Shown here: one piece after another, positions 9,012 to 43,999 of the stretch
Numbering within the stretch: position 1 is the stretch's first letter
How the letters are laid out: every line of letters begins with the position of its first letter
Assembly (NCBI RefSeq): GCF_026210795.1
Contig: NC_089430.1
Coordinates: forward strand, 5,456,001-5,520,000
Direction of reading: 5' to 3'
Length of the DNA stretch: 64,000 nt
DNA from: Rhizophagus irregularis
Lineage: Eukaryota > Glomeromycota > Glomeromycetes > Glomerales > Glomeraceae
Notes under the pieces: model-generated
Seen by the model: only the letters and a program-made list of their open reading frames with translations
The model's database searches: none
What the model was told of the DNA's origin: nothing
Program-made: the position numbers and the translations under genes

Positions 9012-12000
9012 TTATTCTATTCCATCTTTTTTTCTTTCACTCTCAGATTCGTTATTTTGACTTAAGAAAAAATTTTTTCCTTTACTCCCCGATTCGCTAT
9101 TTTGACCTAAGAAAAAAAAAGATTATATTAATTACGAATTGAAAAAAACGTGATTATTATGCAGAAAATAATATTTACTATCTTCATTATCATTCAATCG
9201 AGAAATATTGATTTGTGAAGATTCTATTTAATAAATTAAGACTTATTGTTAGTATTTATAAACTAAATATTCTTAAAATTATAAGTGGAATATTACCATT
9301 TTTGTTAATATTCAACTGAGAAATATTGATTTGACAAGATTCTATTTAATAAATTGATACTTTATTATTAGTATTTTATACATTAAATATTTTTAATGTT
9401 GTAAGTAGAATATTTACCATTCTCGTTAATATTCAATTGAGAAATATTGATTTGTAAAGATTCTATTTAATAAATTAAGACTTATCATTAATATTTATAA
9501 ACTGAATATTCTTAAAATTATAAGTGGAATATTTACCATTTTCGTTAATATTCAATTGAGAAATATTGATTTGCAAAGATTCTATTTAATAAATTGATAC
9601 TATTAGTATTTTATAAACTAGGTACTTATAAAGTCATTACATAAGTATGCTATTTACCACTAGTATTAATATTCATTTGAGAAAAGTTAAGTTGTAAAGA
9701 TTCTATTTAATAAATTAAAAGATTGTTATTAGTTGAATATTGACTAATATATTTAAAAAGTAACAATTAACAAAACATTTAATTAATACCTGAATATTCT
9801 TTGCTTATTATATTATCATTTTGTTCATAATAATCATCGGAATTTTTTGGTTCAGGAAGATTACTAAAATCAAGTAATCTACTTGTATAACTAGCTTCTG
9901 AATGTGTGTTATATATCCCTAAATTAGATGTAATGTTATTTAATGAATTGCTGTTTATTTCATCTGCTTCCTTAATTTGTGCTTGTAACTCTTCGTTTGA
10001 TCCATTATGCCATCTTCGTAAAATATTGTTTATTTCTTTTGTTATTGGCCGTTCTGATGGATTGGCATCTAAGCATCTTTTAATTAAATGTACAATTAAT
10101 TGTGGTACTTTAATGTTAAACCTCGGTCTAAATCCTTTACAAATTTTTATTGCTAGATTATTATCATGTTTTAAATCATGATATGGGGATAATCCAGAAA
10201 TTACTTCATACATTATTATACCAAAACTATAAATATCAGTAGCTTTGGTATAATTTTGTCCTCTTAAAATTTCAGGGGCTATATAAGGTAAAACACCATA
10301 TATGTTGTTTTTTGCATTCTCTAATTCATTATAATTTGCAGGTTTACATAATCCCATATCAGTTATAGCAGTTTTATATTTAAACTTTAATATATTCCCA
10401 ATATGCAAATCTCGATGAATTAATTCCTTTTCATGAATACATTCAAGTCCATTTACAATATGTCGTAAATAATCAAACTTTTTATTCCAATTAAGCTTAC
10501 TATATTCTTTATCTAAATAATTTCGTAAACTTCCATCTTCTGCATAATCTAAAATCATTATATAATTTTTCGTTTCTGGATCCTGTGTTATCCCATAAAA
10601 TCCAACAATCACAAAATTATCCATTCCTACTTTATTATGCAATATAAACTATGTGAATGCAATATTACAAAATATTTTAGTAACACTAATAATTTAAATT
10701 TTATTAACATAATAATAAATTAAATTAATCAGATAATACCTCATTAATAAATTCTGGTGTAATATTTTTTGAATTATTCAAACTTTTCAGAGCTACCAAT
10801 ATATCATTGCTATTTCTTTTCCATTTTTGATTTTTACTATCCCAATCAGTTATAAATCCATTAGTTAAATATGCTCTGTATACTTTTCCGAACCCACCTT
10901 TTGCAATATATTTAATATCATAAAATCTATTATAAGGTATCCATTCCAATGCTTCCTTTACATCTTTATGAGCTGATAATTGAGTATCTTGAATAAATTT
11001 ATCAATATCATCATTACCACTAGTCCAATTTTCAAAATTTCGTTGAAAGTATATTGAATTACAGTATATTTTATTACACTCTTTACATTTATTATTCAAA
11101 ACTATCATCATATAATTTTTTGTTTCTGGATCCTGAGTTATTCCATAAAATGTATGTTCAATTTTAATCTACAAATGTAATAATATGTTAGAAAAATAAA
11201 ATTTTAAAATTTTGTTGAGTAATAAGCTTATTAGTATACTACCTTATTTGCAAGTTCAAATGTAAGATCATTGGGAGTATTTAAACTTTTCAAATTCACA
11301 AACATATTAAGATTGTTTCTTCTCCAATTTTGATTTACATTATCCCAACTTTTATCATTTTCATCATAACTTATATATCCATCAATCCAATTTGCTCTAT
11401 ATACTTTACCAAAATCATCTTCTGCAATATATTTAATATCATGAAATCTATCATAAGGTATCCATTCTAATGCTTCTCTTGCAACTTTATGTACTGATAA
11501 CTGAGTATTTTGAATAAATTTATCAATATCATCATTGCCACTAGTCCAATTTTCAAAATTTTGTTGAAAGTAAATTGAATTACATATTTTATTACACTCT
11601 TTACATTTATTATTCAAAACCATCATATAATTTTTTGTTTCTGGATCCCAAGTTATTCCATAAAATTCATGTTCAATTTTAATCTACAAATGTAATAATT
11701 TATTAGAAATAAAGTATTTATAATTTTGTTAATAATTAACTGAAGCTTATACCTCATTTACAAATTCTAATGTAAGAATGTTTGAAGTATTTAAACTCTT
11801 CAAATTAACAAACATATTGCATCCTTCTCTTATCCAATTTTGATTTTCATTATCCCAACTTCCACTATTTTTACAATCACTTATATGTCCATCAATCCAA
11901 TTTGCTCTATATACTTCACAAAACTCATCTTTTGCAATATATTTAATATCATGAAATCTATCATGAGGCATCCATTCTAATGCATGTGATATTTCATTAT

Positions 12001-13709
12001 CATTATGAACTGATAGCTGGCTATCTTGAATAAATTTGTCAATATCATCATTACCACTAGTCCAATCTATGAATTTATATTGAAAGTGTATTGTGTTACA
12101 TATTTTGTTGCACATTTTACATTTATTACTCAAAACCATCATATAATTTTTTGTTTCTGGATCCTGAGTTATTCCATAAAATTCATGTTCAAATTTAATC
12201 TACAAATGTAATAATTTATTAGAAATAAAGTATTTATAATTTTGTTAATAATTAACTGAAGCTTATACCTCATTTACAAATTCTAATGTAAGAATGTTTG
12301 AAGTATTTAAACTCTTCAAATTAACAAACATATTGCATCCTTCTCTTATCCAATTTTGATTTTCATTATCCCAACTTCCACTATTTTTACAATAACTTAT
12401 ATGTCCATCAATCCAATTTGCTCTATATACTTCACAAAACTCATCTTTTGCAATATATTTAATATCATGAAATCTATCATAAGGCATCCATTCTAATGCA
12501 TGTGATATTTCATTATCATTATGAACTGATAGCTGGCTATCTTGAATAAATTTGTCAATGTCATCATTACCACTAGTCCAATCTATGAATTTATATTGAA
12601 AGTGTGTTGTGTTACATATTTTGTTGCACATTTTACATTTATTACTCAAAACCATCATATAATTTTTTGTTTCTGGATCCTGAGTTATTCCATAAAATTC
12701 ATGTTCAAATTTAATCTACAAATGTTATAATATATTAGAAATAAAATATTTATAATTTTGTTAATAATTAACTGAAGCTTATACCTCATTTACAAATTCT
12801 AATGTAAGAATGTTTGAAGTATTTAAACTCTTCAAATTAACAAACATATTGCATCCTTCTCTTATCCAATTTTGATTTTCATTATCCCAACTTCCACTAT
12901 TTTTACAATAACTTATATGTCCATCAATCCAATTTGCTCTATATACTTCACAAAACTCATCTTTTGCAATATGATATTTAATATCATGAAATCTATCATG
13001 AGGTATCCATTCTAATACTTCACTTACATCTTCATGAGCTGATAACTGAGTATTTTTAATAAATTTATCAATATCATTATTGCCACTAGTCCAATCTATG
13101 AATTTCCGTTGAAAGTGAATTGAATTACATATTTTATTGCACCTTTCACATATATTATTCAAAACCATCATATAATTTTTTGTTTCTGGATCCTGAGTTA
13201 TTCCATAAAATATACGTTCAAATTTAATCTACAAATGTAATGATATATTAGAAATAAAATATTTATAATTTTGTTATGTAATTAACTGAAGCTTATACCT
13301 TATTTACAAATTCTAATGTAAAAATGTTTGGAGTATTTAAACTCTTCAAATTCACAAACATATTGTATTCATTTCTTATCCAATTTTGATTTTCATTATC
13401 CCAACTTTTATCATTTTCATCATAACTTATATATTCATCAATCCAATTTGCTCTATATACTTTACCAAACTCATCATCTTTTGTAATATTATACAATTTA
13501 TCATAAGGTATCCATTCTAATACTTCTAATACTTTACTTACATCTTCATGAACTGATAACTGAGTATTTTGAATAATTTTATCAATATTATCATTACCAC
13601 TAGTCCAATTTTTAAAATTATGTTGAAATTGTATTGAATAACAGATGCAATTACATTTTTTACATATCTCGCTAGCATCTGATAGCTTAATTAGCCCAAA
13701 AGAATCCAT
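9012..13709 (-). CDS. TKL-type protein kinase with six N-lobe exons and five 15-residue C-terminal repeats (gene 1)
   Basis: Exons in transcript order: 13709-13299, 13228-12785, 12715-12269, 12199-11753, 11683-11243, 11168-10740, 10648-9790, then mini-exons 9702-9658, 9581-9537, 9462-9418, 9341-9297, 9223-9179, and terminal exon 9106-9012. Every junction is GT-AG and keeps frame, giving 1265 aa. The first six exons each encode WTSGNDDIDKFIQ, LEWIPYDRF and a kinase N-lobe; only the sixth has an intact loop AKGGFGKVYRA and VALKSL. The 9790-10648 exon is the C-lobe: HRDLHIGNIL catalytic loop, DMGL in place of DFG, YIAPEIL, and DIYSFGIIMYEV. The mini-exons each add ESLQINISQLNINEN-like residues, and the last exon a Ser/Lys-rich tail. 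The ATG at 13709 is preferred because the upstream codons in this frame lack another ATG. Divergent from gene 2. Confidence 0.85.
9179..9702 (-). repeat. Array of five 45-nt phase 1-1 mini-exons
   Basis: Five exons of exactly 45 nt (9658-9702, 9537-9581, 9418-9462, 9297-9341, 9179-9223) repeat at 118-121 bp spacing. Each is preceded by ATTTATTAAATAG and starts AATCTT; each ends before a GTAA donor. Spliced, each adds 15 residues of the pattern ESLQINISQLNINEN. The introns are also homologous, so the unit duplicated is intron plus exon. Confidence 0.9.
10740..13709 (-). repeat. Six tandem N-lobe exon units in kinase gene 1
   Basis: Units of about 485-520 bp, each an exon of 411-447 nt plus a short intron. 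The units at 11753-12199 and 12269-12715 differ at only a handful of bases over 516 bp including the intron, so that duplication is recent. The first unit lacks the YGITQDPETKNYMMVL header found in the other five. Confidence 0.9.
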
Positions 13710-16700
13710 GAGCAGGATTTTCACAATTTATAAACAAATTCAAATTGAGAGGATAAAAAAAAGCTAAAAAATTTGTGCGGGTTGAAAAGTGGAAAAAATA
13801 TTTATTTCGGACCGAGGTCATATAAATAGAAAATATAATCATCACGTGCTATGCATGTCATGTGACTTACATTATTCATTGTGGATTTGTTGAATACGAT
13901 TGAATTATGCATCCGGCGTGAAAATAAGATGTATAGAACTGGTCCTCCACAAATTTTGAGCTCTTCCCATAACAAAAAAAAATCAAAGAAAAAATTTTTA
14001 ATTTAGCATTTCAACGCACCGAGCGCAGTAACAGTAAGTTATATTACACAGGATTCTTGGCAAACGGTGATTTGTTACTTCAATGCATAAATAATTACCA
14101 TTTTTAGAAAGTAACACTGTCATACATTTAAAAACAAATTTCACGTCACAAATCTTCGTCAAAAGACACTAACTAAAAAAATTCCGAAATATTATATGAG
14201 TGGATTATGAGTTATGACACTTTTTTTAAGTGATACATATTGTAAATATTTTAATGCCTAGAACCTCTTTTTCATTATTTGTTTCTAGATAGATAAATAA
14301 ATAATATATTCATTTTTATTAATCCAATATCATTGTTTTATTTGCATGTTTATCATTTTCATTTTTTATTTGAAAAAATTTCTATCATTTTCTTAATAAA
14401 AATTCGAAGAAAAAGCCTGGTTCGTATGGATTGTGTTTATGTTTTCCATTTATGTTTAATCCACTTTTCACAATAATCACTTTTTTTTATTTTTTGTTTA
14501 TTCTTTTATTAACCTCTTAAGCTTGAATTTTTTTTTTATTATCAAATTTCATCGTCGTTATTAAAATAAAACGTGGATTATGTAAAAAAAAAATTTTTCA
14601 AAATATAAAATATTCGCAGTTCCGCACAAGAAATTAAAATGAATCATAATTGCAAAGAAATTTTTAGTCACCCAAAAATGAGAATTACTCACGCAAAAAA
14701 AAAAATAATAGCGTATAACCAAAATTGTCTAATAAAAAAAATAATAATAAATAATAAAAATTTACATTTTTTTTAAAAAAAAAATTCAGATTCAGAGTCA
14801 GCTTGATAATCAAACGGTTAAACTGTTGATCAGAAATAATTTTGTTAAAATTTTTTTTTTAAAAAAAAAATCCGCAGTCAAGCTTTGAAAGAGTTTAAGA
14901 AGATTATAGAAACTTTGAAAAGCGATGATAGTAATAATAATCCACCCGCTAAGAAAGAAAAATAATTTCGTTTGTTGCACAAAGTTACCATAAGTTAATA
15001 GTAAAGGACTCATCAATTGTAAATTGGAAAATAATAAGCATAAAATAGATATTTCATAAAATCTTACTTGTAGTCTTGTACGATACAAATAAAAAACTTG
15101 CGCATGCAAAACTATATATAATAAACAAAGCACAAAGTTACGATCCTAGGCTATTTAGTGCTTTTACAGCTAATTTGTTTAAATTTTCACTAACTAAATA
15201 TAAATTTGATTATATGGGATAAATCATTCATTTTCTTTTAAATCTGCCAATAGTAATTATTCAGAATGTGAAATTACTGGTTGAATCTGTGGAGAAAAGT
15301 AAGTTTATAAGTGCAATTTCGTTAATAATAATATTACTATTAATATTAAACATTCTTTATGGATTTCAATCAAAGATGATTAAAAGTTTGGAGAGTATAC
15401 GTATTTTTGTTTAACACTAATTATAGAATACATAGAATAGAAATGTAAACATAGTCGTTCAAATGTAACTGTCGTTTTTTCAAAATTAGTATTAGTGAAA
15501 TTGATACAATGACGATCATTAAAAATCACATAAAAAAATACGTAGAATTAAAATAAAGCGTCAAAAATATTTATATTGAGTTTCGTTATAATACAAAAAA
15601 AAAACTCATTTTATCCAATTATGGTTTTCCGTAGTAATTAATTATCATTAAAAACTAAAAAAAAAAATAAGAATGAAAAAATAATATTTTAGTTTCATAA
15701 TAAAAGTTTGTGATTTCAAAAATTAAAGAACATATCATACATAGGACTTAATTTAGTACTGTACTTATAAAATATGCTTAATACGTGTGATAAAAAGATT
15801 TCATATCCTTGTTTATAATATATAGTGAAAATATTATTAATAACTAATGGTTTATATCGTAATAATCTACTGATTTCACTCTTTTTTTTTTGTTTAAGAA
15901 TCAGATAAATTATTCAAGGAAATAATGATTGCCAAATTAAAGTTTTTACATTTTTTATAAATTTTTCCGTTAATTGGATTTTCTCGCTTGCAACCAAGGA
16001 CCAGTTTAAAATTCTTTACTTTAATATTCGTTAATGAGCTACTATCTAAATTAATAAAATTATTACTCATAACCCTATTTTACTTTTAATTTCAATAGAT
16101 TAATTTTAAATTTATTGTGATGCTTTTTCTTTTTAAAAAAAAAATGATCACGTGACTGGACATGTCGATCATTACATAATTAATACGAACTCCAAAACGC
16201 CAAATTTTTTTTTTGTTATCCAAATTTAGTTAACATCAGCGTGTTGAGGAAATCATATTATTCAATCGTAAATCTACAATGTGCATAACTAATTTTGATG
16301 ATACCAGTTAGTGATAAATGAGTTGACTAACAATGCAAAAAGTTAGAACTCCTTTCTTGAACGAATTTATACGTCTCTTTAGAATGAGAAGTTATTGATT
16401 TGATAATTTTCCCTGATCAGTTATTCGGTCATCCTGAATTTTTAAGAAATTTTTTTACAAAAAAAAAAATCTTTAGTCAGGAATAACTACTTTATTTTAT
16501 TTACTTTTCTTAACAATTTGCTTATTCTTGTTTTTTTCGGAAACGTTTCTATGATTCTATTTAGATGAAGTAGACTTCCCGCTTTTTTTTAATTTAGCTC
16601 TTTCTTAGCTAATTTGTGAGTTAAAAATTTACCCAATGTTTGTTATTGGCACATTAATATCTTAGTTTCAACTTTAAGTATTATGATGTAATGATTACCA

Positions 16701-16856
16701 AATAAATGATCGACGATTAAACCTTCCCATATATACAATAGCCTCAAGTCAGGCTGAAATTATATATTTTCCCTAAATCAATATAAAATTTTTTATTTAT
16801 TCTTTCTATTTTTTTTAACTTTCTTCAGATTAATTTAAATTTTAATTAAAAACCAA
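13710..16856. promoter_or_regulatory. Divergent intergenic region between kinase genes 1 and 2
   Basis: About 3.1 kb between two head-to-head kinase genes. It must hold both promoters. CACGTG words occur at about 13856 and 16148, and TTGTTATCCAAATTTAG at 16213; the latter box also lies upstream of the AIG1-like GTPase copies further right. Long A and T runs fill the middle. No coding frame there looks real. Confidence 0.45.
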
Positions 16857-19251
16857 ATGTACTGTATAAAGAAATTAATCAAGTCATCAAACACTGACGA
16901 AGAATTGAATGATATATGTGAAAATTGTAAACGTGTATGTTATGGAATAAATTTTCAAAGAAATTTTAAAAATTGGACTAGTGGCAATAATTATATTGAT
17001 ATTTTTATTCAAGTTACTCAATTATCCGTTCATTATCAATGTGAAATATCAAATGCATTAGAATGGATACCTTATGATAAATTTTATAATATTAAATATA
17101 TTTTAGAAGATACTTTTGGTAAAGAATATAAAGCAAATTGGATTGATGGATATATTTATAAATGGAATAATTATTTTAAAAATTGGAAAAGACGTAATAA
17201 AAATATGTTTGTAATTTTAAAAAGTTTAAATGATCCAAAATATATTACATTAAATTTTATGAATGAGGTATAATTTTATATGAAAAATAATTTTTTTTTT
17301 TTTTACAAAATTTTAATCTTTACAATACTTTTAGATTGAAAAGAAACATGAAACTTATGGAATAACTCAAAATCCGAAAACGAAAAATTATATGATTGTA
17401 TTAGATGATAAATGCAAGTGTAATATCATATGTAATGCGAAAATTTTTCAACAAAACTTCAAAAATTGGACTAGTGGTAACAAAGATATCGACAAATTCA
17501 TTCAAGGTACACAATTATTGGCTCATAATAATGTAGAAAACACATTAGAATGGATACCATATGATAGATTCTATGATATCAATTATATTGCAGAAGATAA
17601 TATCTACAAAGCAAATTGGATTGATGGATGTATAGATGAATGGGATATTGAAAATCATAATTGGAAAAGATATAATCAAAATATGTTTGTAAATTTAAAA
17701 AGTTTAGATAATTCTAAAAATATTACATCAGAATTAATAAATAAGGTATAGTTCATTTTTGAATGAAAGTTTAAATATTTTTGTAAATTCACTATAATTT
17801 TAAAAAGCATTATTTAAATATTTTTACTAATATATTATATTTATAGGCCAATCAGACCAATCATAGGCTTTATGGAATAACTCAGGATCCAGAATCAAAA
17901 AATTATATGATGGTCTTAAATGATGAATGTAAAAAATGTTATCATGCATGTAATGCAACTATTTTTCAAAATAATTTTAAAAATTGGACCAGTGGTAATA
18001 ATGATATTGATAAACTTATTCAAGATACTCAGCTATCAGCTCATAAAAATGCAGGAAATGCATTAGAATGGATACCTTATGATAAATTTCACAATATCAA
18101 ACATATTGCAAAAGATGAATTTGGCGAAATATATGAGGCAAATTGGATTGATGGACTTATAGATAAATGGGATGATGAAAATCAAAATTGGAAAAGATAT
18201 AATCAAAATATGTTTGTAAATTTGAAGGGTTTAAATACCCCAGAAAATCTTACATTAGAATTTATAAATAAGGTATGATAAGCTTATTAACAAGATTATA
18301 AGTATTTTTTTTTTCTAACATATTATTATTACATTTGTAGATTAAAAGAGACCATGAATTGTATGGAATGACTCAGGATCCCAAAAAAAATTATATGATC
18401 GTTTTAAATAATAAATGTGCGAAATGTAATTATATATGTAATTCAATATATTTTCAAAGAAATTTTAAAAGTTGGACTAGTGGTAATAATGATATTGATA
18501 AGCTTATTCAAGATGCACAACTATCAACTCATGAAAATGCAGGAAATGCACTAGAATGGATACCTTATGATAGATTTTATAATATAAAATATATTTTAGA
18601 AGATAGTTTTGGTAAAGAATATAAAGCAAATTGGATTGATGGATATGTTTATAAATGGAATAATAATTTTAGAAATTGGAGAAGACGTAATAAAAATATG
18701 TTTGTAACTTTAAAAAGTTTAAATAATCCAAAAAATGTTAAATCAGTAATTATGAACGAGGTATTGTTTTAACGAAATTTTAAATTTTGATTCTTCCTAT
18801 TTTTACTATACTAATATATTATATTTATATTTAATAGATTCATAGTAGTTATGGAATAACTCAAGATCCACAGACAAAAAATTATATGATGGTTTTGAGT
18901 GATAAATGTAAAAAATGTAATAAAATATGTAATACAATATACTTTCAACGAAATTTTAAAAGTTGGACTAGTGGTAATAATGATATTGATAAGATTATTC
19001 AAGATGCACAATTATCAGCTCATAAAAATGCAAGAAATGTATTAGAATGGATACCTTATGATAAATTCTATAATATTAAATATATTGCAAAAGGTGGATT
19101 TGGCAAAGTATATAAAGCGAATTGGATTGATGGACGTATATGGGATTGGAATGATAAAAATCAAAATTGGGAAAGATATGGTAAAAATATGGTTGTGGCG
19201 TTGAAAAGTTTAAATAATTCGAAAAATGTTACATTTGAATTCATGAATGAG
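16857..19251 (+). repeat. Five tandem N-lobe exon units in kinase gene 2
   Basis: Units of about 480-510 bp, all with phase 0 at both ends. The exon order is a header-less first unit, three divergent units with worn glycine loops and one unit with an intact loop. Introns are 67-101 bp and more divergent than in gene 3, so this array is older. Confidence 0.88.
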
Positions 19252-20291
19252 GTATAATTTATTTTTATTTGATCAATTATTAATGAAAATTCTAAAATTT
19301 TAATCGTATTAATTTTTATATTTAGATAACATCTCATCATAAAGTAAGTAATGATATTATTATTGGATTTTATGGAATAACTCAAGATCCGGAAACAAAA
19401 GATTATATGATGGTTTTAGAATATGCAATAAATGGAAGTTTACGAAATTATTTAGACACAAATTATAATAAATTAAGTTGGGAAAGAAAAATTAGAGATT
19501 TATGTGATGTTGCAAAGGGACTTGAATCCATCCATAATAATAACTTAATTCATCGAGATTTACATATTGGTAATATACTAATGGGTAATGATACAGTTTA
19601 TATAACTGATATGGGATTATGTAAACCTGCGGATTATAATGAATCAGAAAATGCAAAAAACAACACGTATGGTGTATTACCATATATAGCTCCTGAAATT
19701 TTAAGAGGAGAAAATTATACCGAAGCTTCAGATATTTATAGTTTTGGTATAATTATGTATGAAGTGATTTCTGGATTACCTCCATATCATGATCTCAACC
19801 ATGATCAATATTTAGCAATAAAAATTTGTCAAGGACTTAGACCAAGATTTAATATTAAAGTACCACAATTTATCGTTGATCTAGTTAAAAGTTGTTTAGA
19901 TGCAAACCCATTAAATCGACCAACAGCAAAAGAAATTTATGAAATTTTTAACCCATGGAGTTTATCAACAGAATTACGAAAACAAATTAGTAAAACGGTC
20001 GAAATAAACAACAATTCATCAAATAATAAAATACCTTCAACTAATTTAGGATTATCATATAAAACACATTCGGAAACTTTTTATGCAAGTAGATTGCTTA
20101 ATTTTGATAATCTACCTGAACCGAAAAATTCTGATGATTATTATGAACGAAATGATAATATAATTGGCATGGAAATTTCAGGTATTAATTAATTAATAAT
20201 AATTCAAATCACTTTTTAATATTATAATAATAATACTAATAATTGATTTTTAATTTATTAAATAGAATCTTTACAAATTGATATTTCTTAA
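16857..20291 (+). CDS. TKL-type protein kinase with five N-lobe exons (gene 2)
   Basis: Exons: 16857-17267, 17335-17745, 17847-18272, 18341-18760, 18838-19251 (N-lobe units), 19326-20181 (C-lobe) and 20266-20291 (terminal mini-exon). All junctions are GT-AG and in frame; 987 aa. Units 1-4 have damaged glycine loops (for example ILEDTFGKEYKA, IAKDEFGEIYEA, IAEDNIYKA), while unit 5 reads IAKGGFGKVYKA with VVALKSL. The C-lobe exon carries NLIHRDLHIGNIL, ITDMGLCKPA, YIAPEILRGE and the aspartate of DIYSFG. The last exon adds ESLQIDIS and then stops: a truncated form of the 45-nt mini-exon. The ATG at 16857 fits a short divergent leader followed by a CxxC pair. If the last intron were retained the protein would end GIN at 20192. 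Substrate unknown; a soluble Ser/Thr or Tyr kinase is inferred. Confidence 0.87.
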
Positions 20292-21526: not shown

Positions 21527-22141
21527 ATGTCTACTCAAGATTCAACTAAGTTATATTGCTCTATTTGCAAAAGGCGTGCAAAAGGGTTTAAAAATCGCTC
21601 AGGACTTCAACGACATGAAACACTAAAACATGTGTCCTACAATACACTTCCGTCACACGTTCGGTCAGTTCCAAACTCCGAACTTTCACATTTAAAAAAA
21701 GCTATAATCAAAGAGTTGCAAAAACGTCTTAAAAATCATCACACTGCTGTTGGGAAACAAGTATTTTCAATACATTGCAGTGAAGATGCTTTTGTTAGTA
21801 TTTTTAAAAATCATATAACTCGTTATTCTCCATGTGGGTCTTCTTATTTTTGTAGTTTTAAGGGGGAAAAAGCCTTTGAAGAAGTTGGAAAAATCTTGGA
21901 TGATGAAAATTGGGGAGAACGTAATTATGGAGGAGGGCAATTAAGCTTTGTCCGTTTGCATATGCCTGAGGTTGAAAATAGTAATTATGAACAAAGTGCA
22001 AAAAAATCTAAAACAAAATCATTAGTTAATGGAGAAATGACTGTTCAATGGAAGGTGACAGGGGGTAAAGATAAAGAGAACCATAAATTTGAAGCAGGTT
22101 CAGCTCAATTTCGTTTTTTTTTAGATCAATGTCAAATTTAA
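21527..22141 (+). CDS. Small C2H2 zinc-finger-like protein, 204 aa
   Basis: Single-exon frame starting at a clear ATG after a pyrimidine-rich leader. Residues about 9-35 hold CSIC followed 15 residues later by HETLKH, an atypical C2H2 finger (CX2CX15HX4H). The rest is hydrophilic, with a GGGQLSFVRLHMPE segment and a Lys-rich tail. It lies convergent to and 110 bp from the large minus-strand gene at 22252-24523, so both may belong to one mobile element. A DNA-binding role is inferred from the finger only; I do not recognise the family. Confidence 0.65.
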   Translation: MSTQDSTKLYCSICKRRAKGFKNRSGLQRHETLKHVSYNTLPSHVRSVPNSELSHLKKAIIKELQKRLKNHHTAVGKQVFSIHCSEDAFVSIFKNHITRYSPCGSSYFCSFKGEKAFEEVGKILDDENWGERNYGGGQLSFVRLHMPEVENSNYEQSAKKSKTKSLVNGEMTVQWKVTGGKDKENHKFEAGSAQFRFFLDQCQI

Positions 22142-22251
22142 AGAAAATCTTATAATGTAAATAGCAAATAATAAAAAAAATTATATAGATAAATTAGTTC
22201 AATTGAATACGTTTTTTCATTTTTTTTTATTTGATAACAAATAAAATCCTG

Positions 22252-24523
22252 TTATTCGAGTCTGTATTTTTTGGATTTTTTAAAAAAATTAGGAACTCTA
22301 TTTGATGCAAAGTACAATTGCCGATTTTCATGCTCTAACATTTCCAAAATTGCTGATTTTCGCGAATTTCTATTCCCTCCATCTTTCAATGTGTTTTGAA
22401 AATAAAGGCATATCTGCATATGATTTTTTTTTTCAACTGGAGAACATGAAAATGCTGCCAATCCAAACTTATGATGAATTTCAAGAAACTCCGCAACATG
22501 ATTGCATAACACATGAATATATGGTGTTATATCCTGAATACGATACATGCCTCTAACAAAATTACCTCTATTTGGATGTCCTGTAGAAGGAGCTGTAAAT
22601 TCATCTAACCAAGATTTGGCCTTATAACGAAAAAATTCACCAGTTGTTTTTTTATCTTGTATTAGATGATATAGTTCATTAAATTGATCCCATAAGGCAC
22701 GGATTTGTATGGCTTGTGTTATTGATTGAAATACAGCAAAAAGGTCAAATTCTTTTAGAACTTTTAATTTGTCTGGACCCATTAATGAAGTATAAGACAG
22801 ATTATTTGTATTTTTTTCATGCCAAAATTGAAACGAAATATTAAGTCTTTGCATTTCTGATAAAATTTTTCCTTTCCAAATTTCTTCATTTGCAGTCTCA
22901 CGGCGGAGATCAGAAATCATTAGTTCCCACAGTCTATCTGTTAATCGCAAAAAAATATGCAACTCGTCAACCACCCAATTTTGTAATGGTATCATATGAA
23001 ATAAAGGTTCTTTGATATGGCCATTTATTTGTTTATAATTGACTTTAATATTATCCATTGATTTGTTGATTTTTTTTGAAGTAGTATTAATGCTATTTTT
23101 ATTACAATCACACCATGGACAGAAATACTGTGCATTAGCAGCATTCATTCCTAAACAAATTGCTAAAAATTTCCAATCGGAACTGAAATATAGTTCTACG
23201 GGCCATTGGTTGCCACCTATTTGATTAAAACCTTTCTCTTTTAATATACATAAATCAGAAATTAAAGGAGTTAATACATTCTTAAGAGACTCATATGTTT
23301 CAGCTCCTGGATATAAAACCAAAGTATAGTGGTTATCTGGTTTTTGTAATCCATTTAAATCATTCAATAATGTCATTGTGACCATTACATGTTTCACTTT
23401 GCGTCCAACATTACGCCCATCTCCTGAAATTCGAATATGTAATGTTGATTGTCTAGGAATTAAAATTCCTTTTTCAATATATAATGGTATTATATAGTTT
23501 AAAATATCTGTTATACGACGTTGACCTCCTTTTCCAATTGATTCTAACATATTTGTAATAATTTCACTATCAGTAATATTTGGTTCTTCTCTAATTGGTT
23601 CAAATTTAGTCAGTTGCAATAAATCAACAAGAGTTAGTGGGACCTGTTTCTTCATTTCTGCATTAATTTTTTGCCATATATCACATACTGCCTTTTCACA
23701 TGGAAGATCTTCAATTCGTGCTAGAGATCGATAAGCTTCTCTTGATATATGACCTTTATCCAAAGATTTAACTACTGCTTCAATTTTTTTTATTTCCTCT
23801 ATTTTATTCACCTTTCCAAAATTAATATCATATACATCATCATCTATCTCAAATTTTATTTGTTTAAGTTTTATTTGATCATCTGGATGAAATGTATTGT
23901 CTCTTTCTCTTTCAACAATATCTAAAATACTCTGTGATAATCCAAGTATTCTGCGACGTTTTTGAGAATTACCAAGATCAATAAATGGCCGAATTTTAAG
24001 ATCTAGAGACATTGTTCTACGCACTCGTTCAACACTAAGTAACTTGAGACCAAAAAGTAAAGGACCAGATATTTTTCCTTTATTTTCTTTGTTTGACTGG
24101 TCCCTATTTCGATTTTTCTCCATTTCTTTCATTCCATTAAACTCCTAATAGAATAATTAGTTAATATTTATTTCAACAATAAAAAATATTTTTAAAAAAT
24201 AAATGTACCTGATAATACTTGCAGGCAGCATCTGTAGATGTCTCCCAGGAATGTACTTCTCTTGAAAAATTAACTCCAAAGCAAATTTTGTATAAAGGTT
24301 TTTTTTCCACATATTCAATTGAACATTCAACTGTATAAATTGCTTTTCCATATTGGGTCTTGACAACATAATTATGAGGAATTGGATGTTTCGGATTCCT
24401 GGTATAATGAAGTTGTTCTGTAAGAGGATATGTTCCCTCTTTTATTATCTCGTAAAAATAGGTTCTTTTATTATCAAAAAGTTTTATAAATGAACTTTTA
24501 GGATAAGTGCCTTCTTCTTTCAT
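22252..24523 (-). CDS. Putative transposase-like protein, two exons, about 735 aa
   Basis: Exon 1 (24523-24209) starts MKEEGTYPKSSFIKLFDNKR and splices at CAG/GTAC to exon 2 (24144-22252), which begins EFNGMKEMEKN; the junction keeps frame. Exon 2 contains RISGDGRNVG followed by a hydrophobic strand (HVMVTMTLLND), a CPWCDC zinc-type pair, VDELHIFLRL, and near the end SPVEKKNHMQ. Acidic residues on predicted strands in this order resemble an RNase-H-like DDE transposase core, but I cannot assign a superfamily. It may pair with the zinc-finger ORF at 21527-22141. No terminal inverted repeats were found by eye. Alternative: a lineage-specific host protein. Confidence 0.55.
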
Positions 24524-25003
24524 AATTTATGTTTTACGTAATTATACTAGATTTATAAAAATAAAAAATGAATATATTAAAAATGTGATAAGTAATAAAA
24601 AAAATTATTTGAAAAAATTTAATAAAAAAAAAAAAATATTTAAAAAAAAAGATGCGTCGAAAAATGACTATCAGATCAAAATTTGTTATGCTTTTAAATC
24701 AAGATTAAAACCTGTATTCAATCCAAATTTAGTTATAAGCCTGATGATCATTTCCCAAATTGAAAACTTAACCTTACTTATTTAATCTATTTATATACCT
24801 GACAATTGTAATCTGACAGACAAGAATCGATCTGAGGCACAACATGTACTGTACATGAATTTTTTTTGCGGGATTTTTTTTAAAACTATTTTTTTAGAAC
24901 AGATAACCTGAAAAGTGTATATTATATATATGCCTCAGTAAGTTTTTAGGGAAAGGTTTAATATTAATGTATTTTTATTAATAGTATTTCTTTTTCTTTA
25001 TAG
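24524..25003. other. AT-rich spacer
   Basis: No supported feature. Poly-A and poly-T runs are frequent; a pyrimidine tract ends in TTTATAG at 25003, which is used as an acceptor by the exon-like segment that follows. Confidence 0.35.
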
Positions 25004-26490
25004 GAAATAAACTTGGAGACCTTGTATTTGGCATCTCTTTAATAAATTACACGTCAGAGTTTGCCGAAGCAGTTCAAGAAAAGTTTAGCAAATTTAAAAA
25101 TATTGAAATTCCAAAAGCTATTAATTATGAGCTCCCAGTGTATTATTTATACGGTGATGTGCTCACCATATTGGGTTAGTTAGACAAGAGGGTTTTCTAG
25201 CATTTCGATTGTATATTTTTTTAGGTGGTTCTTCCAGTTTCCTTAGACGCAAAATTTTGGTAAGTTTTTTTTATTTTTATTTTTTTCTTAATTGTTTTTA
25301 TTTTAACAAACAATTTCTAACAGTTTGTTCTTTCCTTTATCTAGGCAGTTCTCTTTGGATATTGGATTCTAGTAAGGTTAATTTCTATTTTTTTTGTATT
25401 TTATTTTAGTGAACTTTACTAACAGTTCATTTTTTCCAATTTTTTCATTTCTTTTAGATTTTGCCAATTCTCTCTGAAAATAGAGGTGGTGTCCTTCTTT
25501 TTTGTTTTCTTCTGTCTTGTTTTCTTTTGCCTTTTTATTAACTTTTATTTTTCTTTTTTGTAGATTTTGTCTTTTTTTTTTCTTTTAGATTTTGGCGGCT
25601 TCTTTTTTTCAGATTTCTCTAGGTTTGCTTATTCTCTTCAGGTTATTTTTTTTCTTTTCATTTCATTACTAATTTTCACCTTGCTTTTTCATTTTATTAG
25701 GTTTTAATACTTTTTCTTAGGTTTCTGCAGCTTTCTTTACGGAATAGAGATTGGTATTCTTTTACTTTAATTTTATTTTTCCGTCATTTTCTTTACTAAT
25801 TTATCCTTTCTTTGGCTGGCTCTTCTTTTTTTTAGGTGCCAGCGATTTTTCTTTTTTAGGCTTGACAGTTCTCTTTGGAAATAAAGGTTAATGCCCAATT
25901 TTTTTCATTATTTTTTTTTGTTTCGTTTTCTTTTACTAATGTTCATTTTGTTCATTTATTTCTTTTCTTTAGGTTTCAGACAGCTTGTTCTTAGAATCTG
26001 TAAGTTCCAGTACTTTTTTCTTTATAATTTAACAAAACTTTAACTAACGATTTCTTTTTTTTTCCTTTTTTAGGCGGATTTCTTAGACGTGCGTAATGGT
26101 GTGTGGTATTTTTCTTTAACTTGTTTATTTATGAACTATTAACTAGCAGTTTTTTCCTTTTTTAGGTAATTTTTCAGGCTCTTGGACACACGGAAATTTG
26201 GTGAGAGGAACAAATGATTACTACATTTCGCTTTTTTGGACTATTTAAAAATGATTTTTTTAACTTTTTTTATATTTGTAGGAATGGTATCACATCGGAA
26301 CCCTAGGTAAGTTTTTCGAGAAGCTTTTGAAAGCATCATCAAAGAAAATAATATATTAAAGTATTTTTTTATTTGTAGGCTCCGCACTTCTTTTCTTTGA
26401 ATGACTTTTTTTTAATGAAACTCTCACTAACGTTTCATTCATTCTTTTTTTTTAGATGGTTCTGAAGTGTGGAATTTCAGTTGAAATTTG
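25004..26490 (+). CDS. Chain of short exon-like segments in T-rich DNA (unknown gene)
   Basis: 25004-25177 reads NKLGDLVFGISLINYTSEFA and continues to YLYGDVLTILG before a GT donor. After it come at least ten segments of about 25-40 nt, each preceded by a strong pyrimidine tract plus AG and followed by GT: for example GGSSSFLRRKIL (25225-25260), AVLFGYWIL (25346-25372), a segment near 25861-25888 (LTVLFGNK), GNFSGSWTHGNL (26165-26200), EWYHIGTLG (26281-26306) and DGSEVWNFS before a TGA (26455-26484). Several resemble each other (TTCTCTTTGGA or TTTCTTAGA cores), so they look like tandem copies. Exact structure, start and function are unknown. Confidence 0.35.
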
Positions 26491-27261
26491 TCAATGACGA
26501 ATTTAGAGATCTTGGGATGTTATAATGGGTCATCATAAAGATGTGATCCAAATCATCAAGATTAACTGGATTATCTGTCAGAACCTCCCTTGAAAGGTAT
26601 TTTAAAGATAAAGATGGCAGATTTTTTTTTTAATTAGGGATGTTAGTAAAGTTACTAACACCTCTTTATTTATTTATTTTTTATAGAAAGGAACCACTTC
26701 AGTATTAATGGAACAGCTTTTGAAGGCATTTAAAGGAGAAGGGAATTTTTTAGTCTGGGATTATCTAGCTAATGGATTGATCAGATTCATCCAGATCGTA
26801 CCTCAGGGTGAAGGATATATTTCACTGCTTTCTTATTGTAGCAAGTTTACTATTAGCGTGAAAACATTTTGAGTAAAAAAATTTAGTTTAACAAAGTACC
26901 TCATAATTAGCCACATGTTAACACTTTTAATTATTATCTTTTATCTAATAATAATTTACGTCATGAATGCATTATTTATTAAAAGCGTATGTAAAGTTAA
27001 ACTAGTCATATATATGGTTAAAGTAGCTATTACATTTCAACGATTCTAGTAAAGTAGCTGCTAGAAATTTGTTTTTTATTTAGAATCTTCGTATTTTAAT
27101 ATAATGTTAATTTTAGCCAAAATTACGCTAATTCTGGCCAAATTTTAAATCGCACTAAACTGTATTTTTTAAAAGTCGAATATACTTATCGGATTATTGT
27201 ATTACATATTCTATTTTTGCTGCATCTTTGTTGCTATAAAATTCAACGTATTTGGATGATG
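26491..27261. other. 3' flank of the micro-exon chain
   Basis: Contains a less AT-rich part (26490-26820, with MEQLLKAFKGEGNFLVWDYL-like wording in one frame around 26700-26780) that may be a decayed exon, then featureless AT-rich sequence. Confidence 0.3.
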
Positions 27262-27515
27262 AATCAAATTCGCCGATATGTATAAGGGTCAGGTTTGAGT
27301 TTGCGTATTTTAAACTAAAAAAATCATGAAAATCTTTCCTTTTTTAGATAATTTTTGATAATGCCGGTCATAATATTATTTCCTATTATAGTAACGGGCT
27401 AACATTATCATAATTCCGGCCCTGAAAAAATGCGTACAGCTTATAGTAAAAAAATTTTTTCATCACCTGACCCCTATATATATATTTCTGGGTCCTAGTG
27501 ATTCGGTTCTAAACT
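27262..27515. mobile_element. Degenerate MITE, GGGTCAGGT/ACCTGACCCC ends
   Basis: The right end (27473-27515, ACCTGACCCCTATATATATA then TTTCTGGGTCCTAG) is mirrored by a worn left end near 27285-27300 (ATAAGGGTCAGGT). The same terminal words occur in the better preserved copy at 49045-49224. The interior shares CATAATTCCGGCC with 37345-37365 in inverse orientation. Confidence 0.5.
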
Positions 27516-27529
27516 CTGCTCTGATGGAG

Positions 27530-28490
27530 TCAGTTCCACAAATGTAATAGGCGAAAAATAGATAGTGAATTTTATATAGAGTTTATTATATATAGAAAAG
27601 TTCCTAGAAAATAATGAAATAGATATAATAGACTGCTGCAACGAAAAAGAATACAAAAACATAAAAGAGATGAAGAAAAAAGCGAGAGAGATATTAAATG
27701 GAAAGGAGTTACGTGGACGATAAATCATCAAATTGAGATAATAGATGAAGCGCTATTAGTTAATGAATATAATTTAATTTGGAAGAAAAAAATTATAACT
27801 GGAGGATTTCGAAAATGAAGAAAGAAAGTTACTGACGTGATATGGAAAAACAAAATTCTCAATAGCGAAAAATTAGATGATTTATTTATGTATAATTTTA
27901 GAAAAGAATTCGACTGGCAATCGACTTTTGAATTTGTCAGTAACCGCATAAATTTTACTCAAAGACAATGCAATCAAAAAGATACGAAGGATAGATCTTA
28001 TTGAATAAAAAATCTATTAAAAGAATTACCAACTTAGGATACTCTTTTTAAAAGAAACACTGACAAAATAGAAAATGATATATGTAAAAGATGTGGGAAA
28101 AATGAGAAAGAAACTTGGGAACATATTTGGCTATGTGAAGATAATGTGTTCACAATAGATGAAATTGTACAAGAATCAATATATAGGTTTGAAAAACGGT
28201 TAGAAGACGATAACAAAAATGATGAAATTAAAATTTTAAGGAATTATAATTTTAATCTTAGAACACCCTTCGATAATATTGAGAGGAAAAAGTCGAATAT
28301 GGGAGATACTTAGAGAAGTGTACAATGAAAATTTCAACAAATTGACGAATAAAAAAGAAGAAAAAGCAGTAATTAAATTATGGAATTGGCTCTTTTACGA
28401 AATGATCGCCAAAAGTGACACTATTACACTGCATTTCTTTTGTTATCCGGATTTAGTCTTGTTTTACACAACACAAATCACCTGATTATT
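27530..28490 (+). pseudogene. Remnant of a non-LTR retrotransposon ORF2 C-terminus
   Basis: Interrupted frames on the plus strand. At about 28079-28147 one frame reads DICKRCGKNEKETWEHIWLC, a CCHC zinc knuckle of the kind found at the C-terminus of fungal LINE reverse transcriptases; downstream in the same frame are IDEIVQESIYRFEKRLEDDN and, after a frame change, IWEILREVYNENFNKLTNKK. Upstream frames (KEFDWQSTFEFVSNRINFTQ near 27905-27965) fit the connecting region. Several stops and shifts make it inactive. It lies directly upstream of kinase gene 3. Confidence 0.6.
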
Positions 28491-28643
28491 GCATTATATA
28501 TAATTCGCTCTATGCAGAGATAAAATTTTTCTTTCTGTTTTTCCTGCAAAATATATTTCCCACAATCCTTACTCCACCTTTTTTTATTAGTATTTATTAT
28601 TAATTACTTATTTTACTTTTAATCAATTCTTATTGAATTGCAA

Positions 28644-31479
28644 ATGAGTCAAATTATAAGGAAATTATTATTGTCATTTCGTAATGATAAGTGTGAAAGT
28701 TGCGGAAATGATCATTGTTATGTAAAACATTTTCAGAAAAATTTTAAAAATTGGACCAGTGGCAATGATAATATTGATAAATCTATTCAAGATACTCAGC
28801 TATCAGCTCATAATGATGTGAAGAAAGCATTAGAATGGATACCTTATGATAAATTTCACAATATTAAATATATTGCAAAAGATGAATTTGGCGAAATATA
28901 TATAGCAAATTGGATTGATGGAAAAATACGTTATTGGGATGTTGCAAATCAAAATTGGAGAAGAAATAATCATAATATGTTTGTAAATTTGAAGAGTTTA
29001 AATATACCAAACATTCTTATATTATTAGAATCTGTAAGTGAGGTATTATAAGCTTGTTAACAAGATTATAATTAATTTTTTTCTAACATATTATTATTAT
29101 ATTTGTAGATTAAAAGAGATGAATTTTATGGAATAACTCAGAATCCAGAAACAAAAAATTACATGATAGTTTTTAATAATATATGTAAAAAATGCCATGA
29201 AAATTGTTATTCAATATATTTTCAACAAAATTTCAATTATTGGACTAGTGATAATAATGATATTGATAAATTTATTCAAGATACTCAGCTATCAGCTCAT
29301 AATGATGTGAAGAAAGCATTAGAATGGATACCTTATGATAAATTTCACAATATTAAACATATTGCAAAAGATGAATTTGGCGAAATATATATAGCAAATT
29401 GTATTGATGGAAATATACGTTATTGGGATGTTGCAAATAAAAATTTGAGAAGAAATAATCATAATATGTTTGTAAATTTGAAGAGTTTAAATATTCCAAA
29501 CATTCTTATATTATTAGAATCTGTAAGTGAGGTATGATAAGCTTGTTAACAAGATTATAATTAATTTTTTTCTAACATATTATTATTATATTTGTAGATT
29601 AAAAGAGATGAATTTTATGGAATAACTCAGAATCCAGAAACAAAAAATTACATGATAGTTTTTAATAATATATGTAAAAAATGCCATGAAAATTGTTATT
29701 CAATATATTTTCTACAAAATTTCAATTATTGGACTAGTGATAATAATGATATTGATAAATTTATTCAAGATACTCAGTTATCAACTCATTATAATGTGAA
29801 GAAAGCATTAGAATGGATACCTTATGATAAATTTCATAATATTAAATATATTGCAAAAGATGAATTTGGCGAAATATATATAGCAAATTGGATTGATGGA
29901 AATATACGTTATTGGGATGTTGCAAATCAAAATTGGATAAGAAATAATCATATGTTTGTAAATTTGAAAAGTTTAAATACTCCAAACATTCCTATATTAG
30001 AATCTGTAAATGAGGTATGATAAGCTTGTTGACAAGATTATAATTATTTTTTTTTTAACATATTATTATTATATTTGTAGATTAAAAGAGATGAATTTTA
30101 TGGAATAACTCAGAATCCAGAAACAAAAAATTACATGATGGTTTTGATTAATATATGTGAAGAGTGTGATAAAATATGTAATTCAATACATTTTCAACGA
30201 AATTTTAAAAGTTGGACTAGTGACAATGATGATATTGATAAATTTATTCAGGATACTCAGCTATCAGCTCATAATGATGTGAAGAAAGCATTAGAATGGA
30301 TACCTTATGATAAATTTCACAATATCAAATATATTGCAAAAGATGAATTTGGAGAAATATATAAGGCAAATTGGATTGATGGAAATATAAGTTATTGGAA
30401 TAATAAAAATGAAAATTGGATAAGAAGTCATCATGATATGTTTGTAAATTTGAAAAGTTTAAATATTCCAGAAAATTTTACATCAGAATTTATAAATAAG
30501 GTATGACAAGCTTATTAACAAGATTATAAGTATTTTTTTTCTAACATATTATTACATTTGTAGATTAAAGGATATGAAATTTATGGAATAACTCAGGATC
30601 CAAAAAAACAAAATTATGTGATGGTTTTGGGTGATATATGTAAAAAATGTAATGAAAAATGTAATTCAATATATTTTCAACGAAATTTCAATTATTGGAC
30701 TAGTGATAATGATGATATTGATAAATTTATTCAAGACACTCAGCTATCAGCTCATAATAATGTGAATAAAGCATTAGAATGGATACCTTATGATAAATTT
30801 TGCAATATCAAACATATTGCAAAAGGTGAATTTAACAAAATATACATAGCAAATTGGATTGATGGAAATATAAGTTATTGGAGTTATTGGGATGATGCAA
30901 ATCAAAATTTGGAAAGAACTAATCATAATATGTTTGTAAATTTGAAGAGTTTAAATACTCCAGAAAATCTTACATTAGAATTTATAAATAAGGTATGACA
31001 AGCTTATTAACAAGATTATAAGTATTTTTTATTCTAACATATTATTACATTGGTAGATTAAAAGAGAGCGTGAATTTTATGGAATAACTCAGAATCCAGA
31101 AACAAAAAATTACATGATGGTTTTAAATAATATATGTGAAAAGTGTAATTCAATATGCAATACAATATACTTTCAACGAAATTTTAAAAGTTGGACTAGT
31201 GGTAATAATGATATTGATAAGATTATTCAAGATGCACAACTATCAGCTCATGAAAATGCAGGAAATGTATTAGAATGGATACCTTATGATAAATTTTATA
31301 ATATTAAATATATTGCAAAAGGTGGATTTGGCAAAGTGTATAAAGCGAATTGGATTGATGGACGTATATGGGATTGGAATGATAAAAATCAAAATTGGGA
31401 AAGATATGGTAAAAATATGGTTGTGGCGTTGAAAAGTTTAAATAATTCGAAAAATGTTACATTTGAATTCATGAATGAG
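28644..31479 (+). repeat. Six tandem N-lobe exon units in kinase gene 3
   Basis: Units of 483-493 bp (exon plus a 63-66 bp intron). Introns begin GTATGATAAGCTT or close variants and end CATATTATTATTATATTTGT plus AG, showing that introns were copied with exons. The sixth unit is much closer to the last unit of gene 2 than to its own neighbours. Confidence 0.9.
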
Positions 31480-32525
31480 GTATAATTTATTTTTATTTGA
31501 TCGTTTAATGAAATTCTAAAATTTTAATCGTATTAATAGTTATTTCTGTATTTAGATAACATCTCATCACAAAGTAAGTAATGATATTATCATTGGATTT
31601 TATGGAATAACTCAAGATCCGGAAACAAAAAATTATATGATGGTTTTGGAATATGCAACAAATGGAAATTTACGAAATTATTTAGACACAAATTATAATA
31701 AATTAAGTTGGGAAAGAAAAATTAGAGATTTATGTGATGTTGCAAAGGGACTTGAATCCATTCATAATAATAATCTAATTCATCGAGATTTACATATTGG
31801 TAATATACTAATGGGTAATGATACAGTTTATATAACTGATATGGGATTATGTAAACCTGCGGATTATAATGCATCAGTAAATGCAAAAAACAACGCGTAT
31901 GGTGTATTACCATATATAGCTCCTGAAATTTTAAGAGGAGAAAATTATACCGAAGCTTCAGATATTTATAGTTCTGGAATAATTATGTATGAAGTAATTT
32001 CTGGGTTACCTCCATATCACGATATCAGCCATGATCAATATTTAGCAATAAAAATTTGTCAAGGACTTAGACCAAGATTTAATATTAAAGTACCCCAATT
32101 TATTATTGATTTAGTTAAAAATTGCTTAGATGCAAACCCATTAAATCGACCAACAGCAAAAGAAATTTATGAAATTTTTAACCCATGGAGTTTAACAGCA
32201 GAATTACGAGAACAAATTAGTAAAGCGGACGAAATAAACAACAATTCATCAAATAATAAAATACTTTCAACTAATTTAGGATTATCATATAAAACACATT
32301 CGGAAGCTTTTTATGCGAGTAGATTGCTTAATTTTGATAATCTTCCTGAACCAAAAAATTCCGACGATTATTATGAACATAATGATAATATAATAAGCAA
32401 GGAATTTTCAGGTATTATTTAATAATTTTGTTAATTAAAATGCAAGTTTTAAAGATACTACTAATAAACTTTTCATTTATTAAATAGAATCTTTACAAAT
32501 TGATATTGCTCAATTGAATATTTAG
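28644..32525 (+). CDS. TKL-type protein kinase with six N-lobe exons (gene 3)
   Basis: Exons: 28644-29042, 29109-29531, 29598-30014, 30081-30500, 30564-30992, 31057-31479 (N-lobe units), 31556-32411 (C-lobe), 32488-32525 (terminal mini-exon). All GT-AG and in frame; 1134 aa. Only unit 6 keeps IAKGGFGKVYKA and VVALKSL; the other five read AKDEFGEIY or AKGEFNKIY with MFVNLKSL. The C-lobe shows HRDLHIGNIL, ITDMGLCKPA, YIAPEILRGE, and is almost the same as in gene 2. DIYSSG replaces DIYSFG. The last exon adds ESLQIDIAQLNI and stops at TAG. Units 2 and 3 (offset 489 bp) are near-identical, including their introns. The ATG at 28644 follows a TTG codon and is the first usable start. Confidence 0.87.
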
Positions 32526-43490: not shown

Positions 43491-43999
43491 AACTCGAGTA
43501 TGAAGAAAAGTTTGCTAAAGTCAGCTTTATTAGATCAGATGGATCTAAAGGCATTTTATTTATTAGATTTTATTGTGATTTACTAAAGTTAAATTATTTA
43601 TTTATATCATATTTTTACTTTTTTTTAGGTCAATTACGGCTTACAACTACTCATTATGTCTTTGATGAAAATTTATCAATTATATTCGCCAAAGATCTAC
43701 GTCCCGGAGAAACAAAGATATTGGTATCAGATGATAACAATAAACTAGTTTCGGTCTTTGTAGATGATGTGACAATCGTAAGTTTTAATCTATACTCAAT
43801 CTTTTATTAGTATAATAAAATTACTTTTCTTGATAATTAATTACATTTATATTTTAAACAGGAGATGTATGATAAGTGCATTAGTTTCTACACACGAGCT
43901 GGGTCAGTTATCGCTGATGGTGTACAAACGCTCATGGATTTGGTTTTTTTACCAGTTCGTTTGTGGACTTATATTATACCAAGAGAAGAACGGCTTCGT

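Follow-up and report, generated by a model that had tools for sequence, protein, structure and literature searches.

When the front half of a kinase domain is repeated along a gene that has only one catalytic half, what does the gene encode? The question is raised by three genes, here called A, B and C, in a 64,000-nucleotide stretch of Rhizophagus irregularis (NCBI RefSeq assembly GCF_026210795.1, contig NC_089430.1, positions 5,456,001 to 5,520,000 of the forward strand), hereafter the window. Each gene has a row of exons, or units, that resemble the kinase N-lobe, followed by a single exon for the catalytic C-lobe. A sequence-only reading had left two possibilities open, a protein in which degenerate N-lobes stand in a row and a set of cassettes from which one exon is chosen; the first is now favoured, and the second disfavoured, by the way in which the state of the ATP site depends on position in the row. 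Judging from sequence, each gene probably encodes one long protein, in which a row of pseudo-N-lobes incapable of holding ATP in the usual way would serve in binding or control in front of a single active kinase.

Gene structure and the hybrid exon

The spliced models agree with the first count of six, five and six N-lobe units followed by one C-lobe exon, and give proteins of 1265, 987 and 1134 amino acids, with GT..AG junctions and no stops in the frames of genes A, B and C. Spliced in this manner, gene A (minus strand) ends at 9012, gene B (plus strand) at 20291 and gene C (plus strand) at 32525. The tandem repeats are thus present as described, but the composition of the exons does not allow the view that each unit is a plain N-lobe: every unit after the first is a hybrid exon that carries a hinge piece. 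Neither this hybrid make-up nor the Cys/His motif within it was part of the first reading, and both alter the nature of the module. The parts of the genes, in window positions, are the following.

13299..13709, minus strand: gene A unit 1, start exon, degenerate N-lobe, no hinge piece (spliced model)
12785..13228, minus strand: gene A unit 2, hybrid exon (spliced model and unit alignment)
12269..12715, minus strand: gene A unit 3, hybrid exon
11753..12199, minus strand: gene A unit 4, hybrid exon
11243..11683, minus strand: gene A unit 5, hybrid exon
10740..11168, minus strand: gene A unit 6, hybrid exon, intact GGFGKVY, VALKSL and NE
9790..10648, minus strand: gene A catalytic C-lobe exon, HRD, DMG and APE motifs
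9012..9702, minus strand: gene A tail, five tandem 45-nucleotide exons (phase 1-1) and final exon with stop
16857..17267, plus strand: gene B unit 1, start exon
17335..17745, plus strand: gene B unit 2, hybrid exon
17847..18272, plus strand: gene B unit 3, hybrid exon
18341..18760, plus strand: gene B unit 4, hybrid exon
18838..19251, plus strand: gene B unit 5, hybrid exon, intact ATP-site residues
19326..20181, plus strand: gene B catalytic C-lobe exon (Pfam match, motifs)
20266..20291, plus strand: gene B last exon with stop
28644..29042, plus strand: gene C unit 1, start exon
29109..29531, plus strand: gene C unit 2, hybrid exon
29598..30014, plus strand: gene C unit 3, hybrid exon
30081..30500, plus strand: gene C unit 4, hybrid exon
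30564..30992, plus strand: gene C unit 5, hybrid exon
31057..31479, plus strand: gene C unit 6, hybrid exon, intact ATP-site residues
31556..32411, plus strand: gene C catalytic C-lobe exon (Pfam match, motifs)
32488..32525, plus strand: gene C last exon with stop

The HRD, D(M)G and APE motifs are present in the C-lobes of all three genes. The C-lobe exon of gene C matched the Pfam family PF07714 at 2e-40, and spliced gene B matched it at 5.2e-50 over profile positions 5-256, with only the last N-lobe and the C-lobe contributing. On these motifs and profile matches, genes A, B and C are classed as protein kinases (PF07714). As had been noticed at the outset, GGFGKVY and VALKSL are kept solely by the unit adjacent to the C-lobe, and this is true of all three genes. 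The earlier statement that every exon is of phase 0-0 holds for the junctions among N-lobe units and between N-lobe and C-lobe, but not for the tail exons. In the tail of gene A (9179-9702, minus strand), the five tandem 45-nucleotide exons are of the ESLQINISQLNINEN type, and genes B and C are each modelled with a single such exon; the tandem row indicates that duplication of an exon plus its intron acted there too.

An internal exon opens with YGITQDPETKNYMMVL (beta4, beta5 and hinge), a piece that also opens the C-lobe exon. It is followed by C-x2-C-x3-C, by a stretch of the form F..NF..WTSGN.DID..IQ.TQLS.H and by ALEWIPYD, and the 3' part of the exon then supplies beta1 to beta3 and the first half of helix C, ending at the codon for the helix-C Glu or Lys. 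These strand and helix names are taken from the family's own last unit and C-lobe and from general knowledge of kinases, rather than from a structure model. With this layout, joining the exons in order would let each N-lobe be completed by the exon after it. The Gly of YGIT lies 8 residues into the internal exon in 103 of the 154 units measured (out of 171 internal units) and 5 residues in 37 of them, as compared with 16-18 residues in the three C-lobe exons of the window, so that internal units have a shorter helix C and a shorter loop from it to beta4. Identity to gene A unit 2 ranges from 53% to 87% among the other 16 window units, last units included. The beta3 lysine is present in 17/17 window units; the losses concern the VAxK Ala and the second Gly of the loop and often extend to the helix-C Glu. 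Searched singly, neither an internal unit nor the last unit matched Pfam, and a profile search of the PDB with a unit returned two weak and unrelated matches. By their motifs and alignment, the internal units are to be regarded as descendants of a kinase N-lobe that have lost ATP-site residues.

The mechanism that we propose would start from exons joined in order, running from a start unit through several internal units and a single last unit to the catalytic C-lobe. The last unit would be the working N-lobe and would pair with the C-lobe as the sole active kinase. Each internal unit, together with the next, would form a probable zinc module and a pseudo-N-lobe, the latter taking beta1 to beta3 and a short helix C from one exon and beta4 and beta5 from the next. 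The whole row would act as a repeated binding or regulatory array that docks ligands, partners or the kinase itself, and would grow or shrink through tandem duplication of an exon plus its intron. The binding or inhibitory role first suggested for the degenerate N-lobes is likewise put forward here only as what the architecture would allow.

Arrays in the genome and the position rule at the ATP site

Arrays of this kind recur in the genome. The search covered one R. irregularis assembly (146,748,485 bases, 32 contigs), and the best 150 of 4753 candidates for the unit query were scored; because this list favours intact copies, the counts are lower bounds. Of these 150 matches, 149 had no stop. 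Under a 3-kb joining rule they fall into 56 clusters on 12 contigs, 29 of the clusters having at least two matches. Twenty further regions fetched from the clusters all hold arrays, with 5-16 units each, and the C-lobe was reached in 18 of the 20 pieces (L015 and L019 end before it). Together with the three of the window, this makes 23 arrays and 220 units, although unit counts may be low for L008, L012, L016, L018 and L019, whose start unit was not seen. Each of the 21 arrays that could be read as far as the C-lobe has a single one, which in L005 is split over two matches. No relative was found on viral contigs. The longest row, with 16 units, is L013 (G000:C2:5519800-5529500), at and past the end of the window; it has three irregular units inside and may be a fusion of two arrays.

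A second sample was drawn independently of the units, taking every sixth row, from 6 to 126, of the best-scored kinase matches (21 rows). Row 84 was array L004, already in the set, and the 20 others were fetched. At least two N-lobe units were found upstream of 5/20 sampled C-lobes (L021, L024, L030, L031 and L040), or 6/21 when L004 is counted, and one N-lobe was found within 2.6 kb upstream of the remaining 15/20. As a rough figure, about a quarter of kinase C-lobes carry arrays. The single-unit kinases share the same body plan, a Cys-rich N-lobe exon and then the C-lobe exon. In L031 (G000:C2:1202490-1205780), two upstream units read as beginning with the Cys motif and as lacking a hinge piece in frame, and one of them is split between two frames; this array may have another exon layout or may be decaying.

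The residues of the ATP site were tabulated for 210 of the 220 units of the 23 arrays (21 last, 171 internal and 18 first units, gene B unit 1 being counted among the first); the other ten had no usable donor near the expected place or were cut by their piece. The last units carry the glycine loop, beta3 Lys and helix-C Glu that are expected of a kinase. The second Gly of the loop was found in 21/21 last, 9/171 internal and 1/18 first units, the VAxK Ala in 20/21, 0/171 and 0/18, and the helix-C Glu in 21/21, 64/171 and 6/18 (Fisher p of 2.6e-21, 3.1e-26 and 7.8e-9 for last against internal units, values that overstate independence because the units are related). The two glycines Gly2 and Gly3, the Lys and the Glu occur jointly in 19/21 last units and in 3/171 internal units. 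By eye, the five arrays of the C-lobe sample follow the same rule. One of them, L021 (G000:C25:1640550-1643860), represents a divergent kinase subfamily that has an array of its own, with a different linker and with four Cys in the motif; by eye, its internal units are without glycine loop and beta3 Lys, and its last unit keeps GGFSKVY and VVLK.

Descent was considered with a tree of 96 rows (21 last units, 69 of the 171 internal units and 6 single units). The internal label needs at least 13 changes on this tree, as against a mean of 23.7 for shuffled labels, none of the 500 shuffles being as low. Last and internal units group together in L005, L006/L012, L017 and L020 and for unit 4 and the last unit of gene B, with support of 87-94, under that of the well-supported (starred) branches, and they differ at the ATP site nonetheless, which points to repeated loss or to a maintained difference. 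A dependence of integrity on position is in keeping with a protein in which the last N-lobe works for the C-lobe.

Dscam exemplifies tandem exon duplication with mutually exclusive splicing. A similar choice here would join unit 1, one variable unit and the C-lobe, so that many kinases, differing in their N-lobe, would arise from one gene. Since all units are of phase 0-0, the frame would be kept with any one of them, and the C-lobe exon would give a full helix C-beta4 segment to whichever unit was joined. The process is well known in animals (PMC9013439; PMC9741552), and the rows of similar exons of equal phase with introns between in such clusters are like those seen here. Free choice, however, predicts no dependence on position, and here the exon adjoining the constant exon is the intact one; at the level of sequence the units are not interchangeable with respect to the constant exon, and most of the internal units that might be chosen would be without the usual ATP site. 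Introns of about 70 nucleotides with ordinary sites also look constitutive. Exon choice is therefore considered quite unlikely.

A related proposal is that the last unit is always used and any number of upstream units is skipped, giving arrays of variable length. Each skip would be silent in the frame, the exons being of phase 0-0, and the splice sites are much alike among units. No positive evidence for skipping was found, and with short introns fungal splicing usually proceeds by intron definition, in which exon skipping is rare; we regard this proposal as unlikely. A role as a multi-site nucleotide sensor, with internal units binding ATP or another nucleotide in some other way, would agree with the retention of the beta3 Lys and of Gly3 in most internal units. 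The VAxK Ala, which lines the adenine pocket, is however absent from all 171, the Phe of the glycine loop falls in a gap in 28/171 and Gly3 in 23/171, and the L021 subfamily lacks the Lys as well; such a sensor is barely credible.

Open frames, introns and selection

If the upstream units were decaying by-products of tandem duplication, untranscribed or functionless, stops should have accumulated. Over the profile, 191 of 200 non-first units have a single open frame (two further units are cut off by their piece), and 187/200 also have an in-phase acceptor and donor at the expected place. Drift would have put a stop in a mean of 75-98% of units (81% in an earlier estimate), with assumed rates from a quarter of the intron divergence up to half of the exon synonymous divergence (dS). 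Decay does not fit these open frames. The exon lengths, 187/187 multiples of three, are forced by the choice of in-phase sites and were not used as evidence. The introns between units are GT-AG in 175/175 cases, with a median of 70 nucleotides, and drift freely in length (60/58/57 in the three classes modulo 3) with an in-frame stop in 164/175; internal and last units have broadly similar splice sites. In introns this short there is hardly space for a promoter in front of the last unit.

By the NG86 measure, the ratio of nonsynonymous to synonymous divergence (omega) was 0.64 between neighbouring internal units (141 pairs), 0.56 between penultimate and last units (21 pairs) and 0.44 among last units (210 pairs). 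The difference lies in beta1 to helix C (0.80 for neighbouring internal units and 0.40 for last units), with little in the Cys-linker (0.52 and 0.43) or the hinge (0.62 and 0.58). A neutral simulation with the base composition of the introns gave 1.03, so the measure is not badly biased. At 54 of 141 sites, purifying selection was significant against the pooled synonymous rate (80 disjoint neighbouring pairs, Bonferroni 0.05), and these sites include the three Cys, WTS, LEW, the beta4 YGIT and the beta3 V-LK. The three Cys, the Trp of WTS and LEW, the Ser of WTS and the hinge Gly are kept in 165-170 of the 171 internal units, the linker His in 166, the Asp of DID in 162 and the Pro of WIP in 159. 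Identity is 74.2% for neighbouring units and declines to 67.1% for units ten places apart (n=12), the pattern that tandem duplication should give.

Several observations weigh against one long protein with a row of functional pseudo-N-lobes. The internal junction is 8-13 residues shorter than that between last unit and C-lobe, which makes a stable N-lobe fold uncertain, and the AlphaFold model of a lone internal unit (from the 17 of the window) was poor, with a predicted local distance difference test score of 46, and was not used. The position effect does not extend to the beta3 Lys (last 21/21, internal 153/171, first 15/18; p=0.23) or to Gly3 (19/21, 124/171 and 15/18; p=0.11), and besides the relatedness of units that affects the Fisher tests, the starred branches of the tree force only one change of role. 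Thirteen of the 200 units are irregular. Internal units are only moderately constrained relative to exon dS (omega 0.63-0.64), and their pooled nonsynonymous divergence between neighbours, at 0.139, is the same as the median for neighbouring introns, at 0.137. With introns taken as the proper neutral standard, the internal amino acids would overall be hardly constrained; the median exon dS is higher, at 0.24, and short gapped introns may under-count changes. This equality implies that the frame and the scaffold sites are held, and not the whole amino acid sequence. Diversifying selection, which had appeared at 7 of the 141 sites (80 disjoint pairs, Bonferroni), was dropped after an indel-free control with 26 disjoint pairs, in which all seven were above expectation, one at p < 0.01, and none passed Bonferroni; six of the seven were also above expectation in 10 last-unit pairs. 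Finally, the joining of all units into one transcript is itself deduced from the genomic sequence.

The irregular units, the equality of intron and nonsynonymous divergence and the omega of 0.80 in the kinase part of internal units would all suit decaying debris. Against this stand the open frames, the 149 stop-free genome matches (in a list that favours intact copies), the free drift of the introns and the scaffold residues retained in nearly all internal units, and we consider debris very improbable.

The cysteine motif, neighbouring features and related systems

The scaffold may include a metal site. Cys and His were tallied in the 36 N-lobe matches of the sampled C-lobe loci. In 14 of 15 three-Cys units there is a His about 30 residues past the third Cys, and the fifteenth has a His beside a gap; none of the 17 four-Cys units has a His at that column, L027 having one adjacent to it. 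Four of the 36 rows fit neither pattern, and one of these has lost all three Cys and the His. As a lead, this suggests that the zinc site is of C3H type in the main array family, others having a C4 ribbon; the covariation is seen among sequences of shared descent. The split does not follow that between arrays and single-unit kinases: L021, an array, is C4, and L025, a single, is C3H.

Elsewhere in the window, open reading frames at 41997-43807 and 57852-58697 (plus strand) have AIG1-type and Hint-module Pfam matches. AIG1 was above the cut-off in the third such frame and Hint in the second, the other matches being just below; an AIG1-Hint fusion family is possible. An open Tc1/mariner-type transposase (DDE_3, Tc3-type helix-turn-helix) lies at 38935-40002 (minus strand), and a 630-amino-acid open reading frame without a Pfam match at 0.01 lies between genes B and C (22255-24144, minus strand).

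In pseudokinase-kinase proteins such as JAK/TYK2 and GCN2, a kinase that is dead or incomplete stands ahead of an active one. As in the arrays, the dead part is N-terminal to the active one and may regulate it; a TYK2 chain was among the matches, as was a 1173-residue tyrosine kinase matched in two stretches. Those proteins have one pseudokinase domain, however, and in the arrays there are as many as 15 half domains, each combined with a Cys/His motif and straddling an exon junction. In plant tandem kinases, for which a decoy or sensor role has been proposed, the kinase parts are few and are whole domains. They include the tandem kinase-pseudokinase resistance proteins Yr15, Pm24, Sr62 and Lr9 and, in the available part of that literature, have duplicated kinase parts in one protein, some of them dead, as here. 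They have no half-domain exon array, and their mark of at least two whole domains is not found in the fetched pieces of the 21 arrays with one C-lobe each. Fungal NLR-like proteins are receptors with repeat arrays of WD40, ANK or TPR of high identity. The likeness lies in tandem units of close identity beside an effector domain; the repeat here differs in being half an enzyme domain with a Cys/His motif.

The available portions of three papers give kinase gene counts and describe tandem arrays of duplicate genes, and make no mention of N-lobe exon repeats inside a gene (PMC10234402; PMC8647823; PMC6123716). The first, in its available part, reports 2,533 kinase genes and an expanded PF07714 repertoire in R. 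irregularis, the same genome and kinase family as those of the arrays (PMC10234402). A description of N-lobe exon arrays was not found in the accessible open-licence literature, outside which lie most subscription papers and supplementary tables, and such arrays may already stand in publicly annotated gene models without having drawn comment.

The arrays show that a protein repeat can be made from half of an enzyme domain. More tentatively, they may be a new modular class of receptor kinase, with a recognition array built from the kinase's own front half. If this is true, the copy number and sequence of the array would change by exon duplication while the catalytic unit is left untouched, and a symbiont with thousands of kinase genes would have a self-made, rapidly diversifying repertoire of sensors. 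In this arbuscular mycorrhizal fungus, rows of dead half-kinases would offer a handle on part of the kinase expansion.

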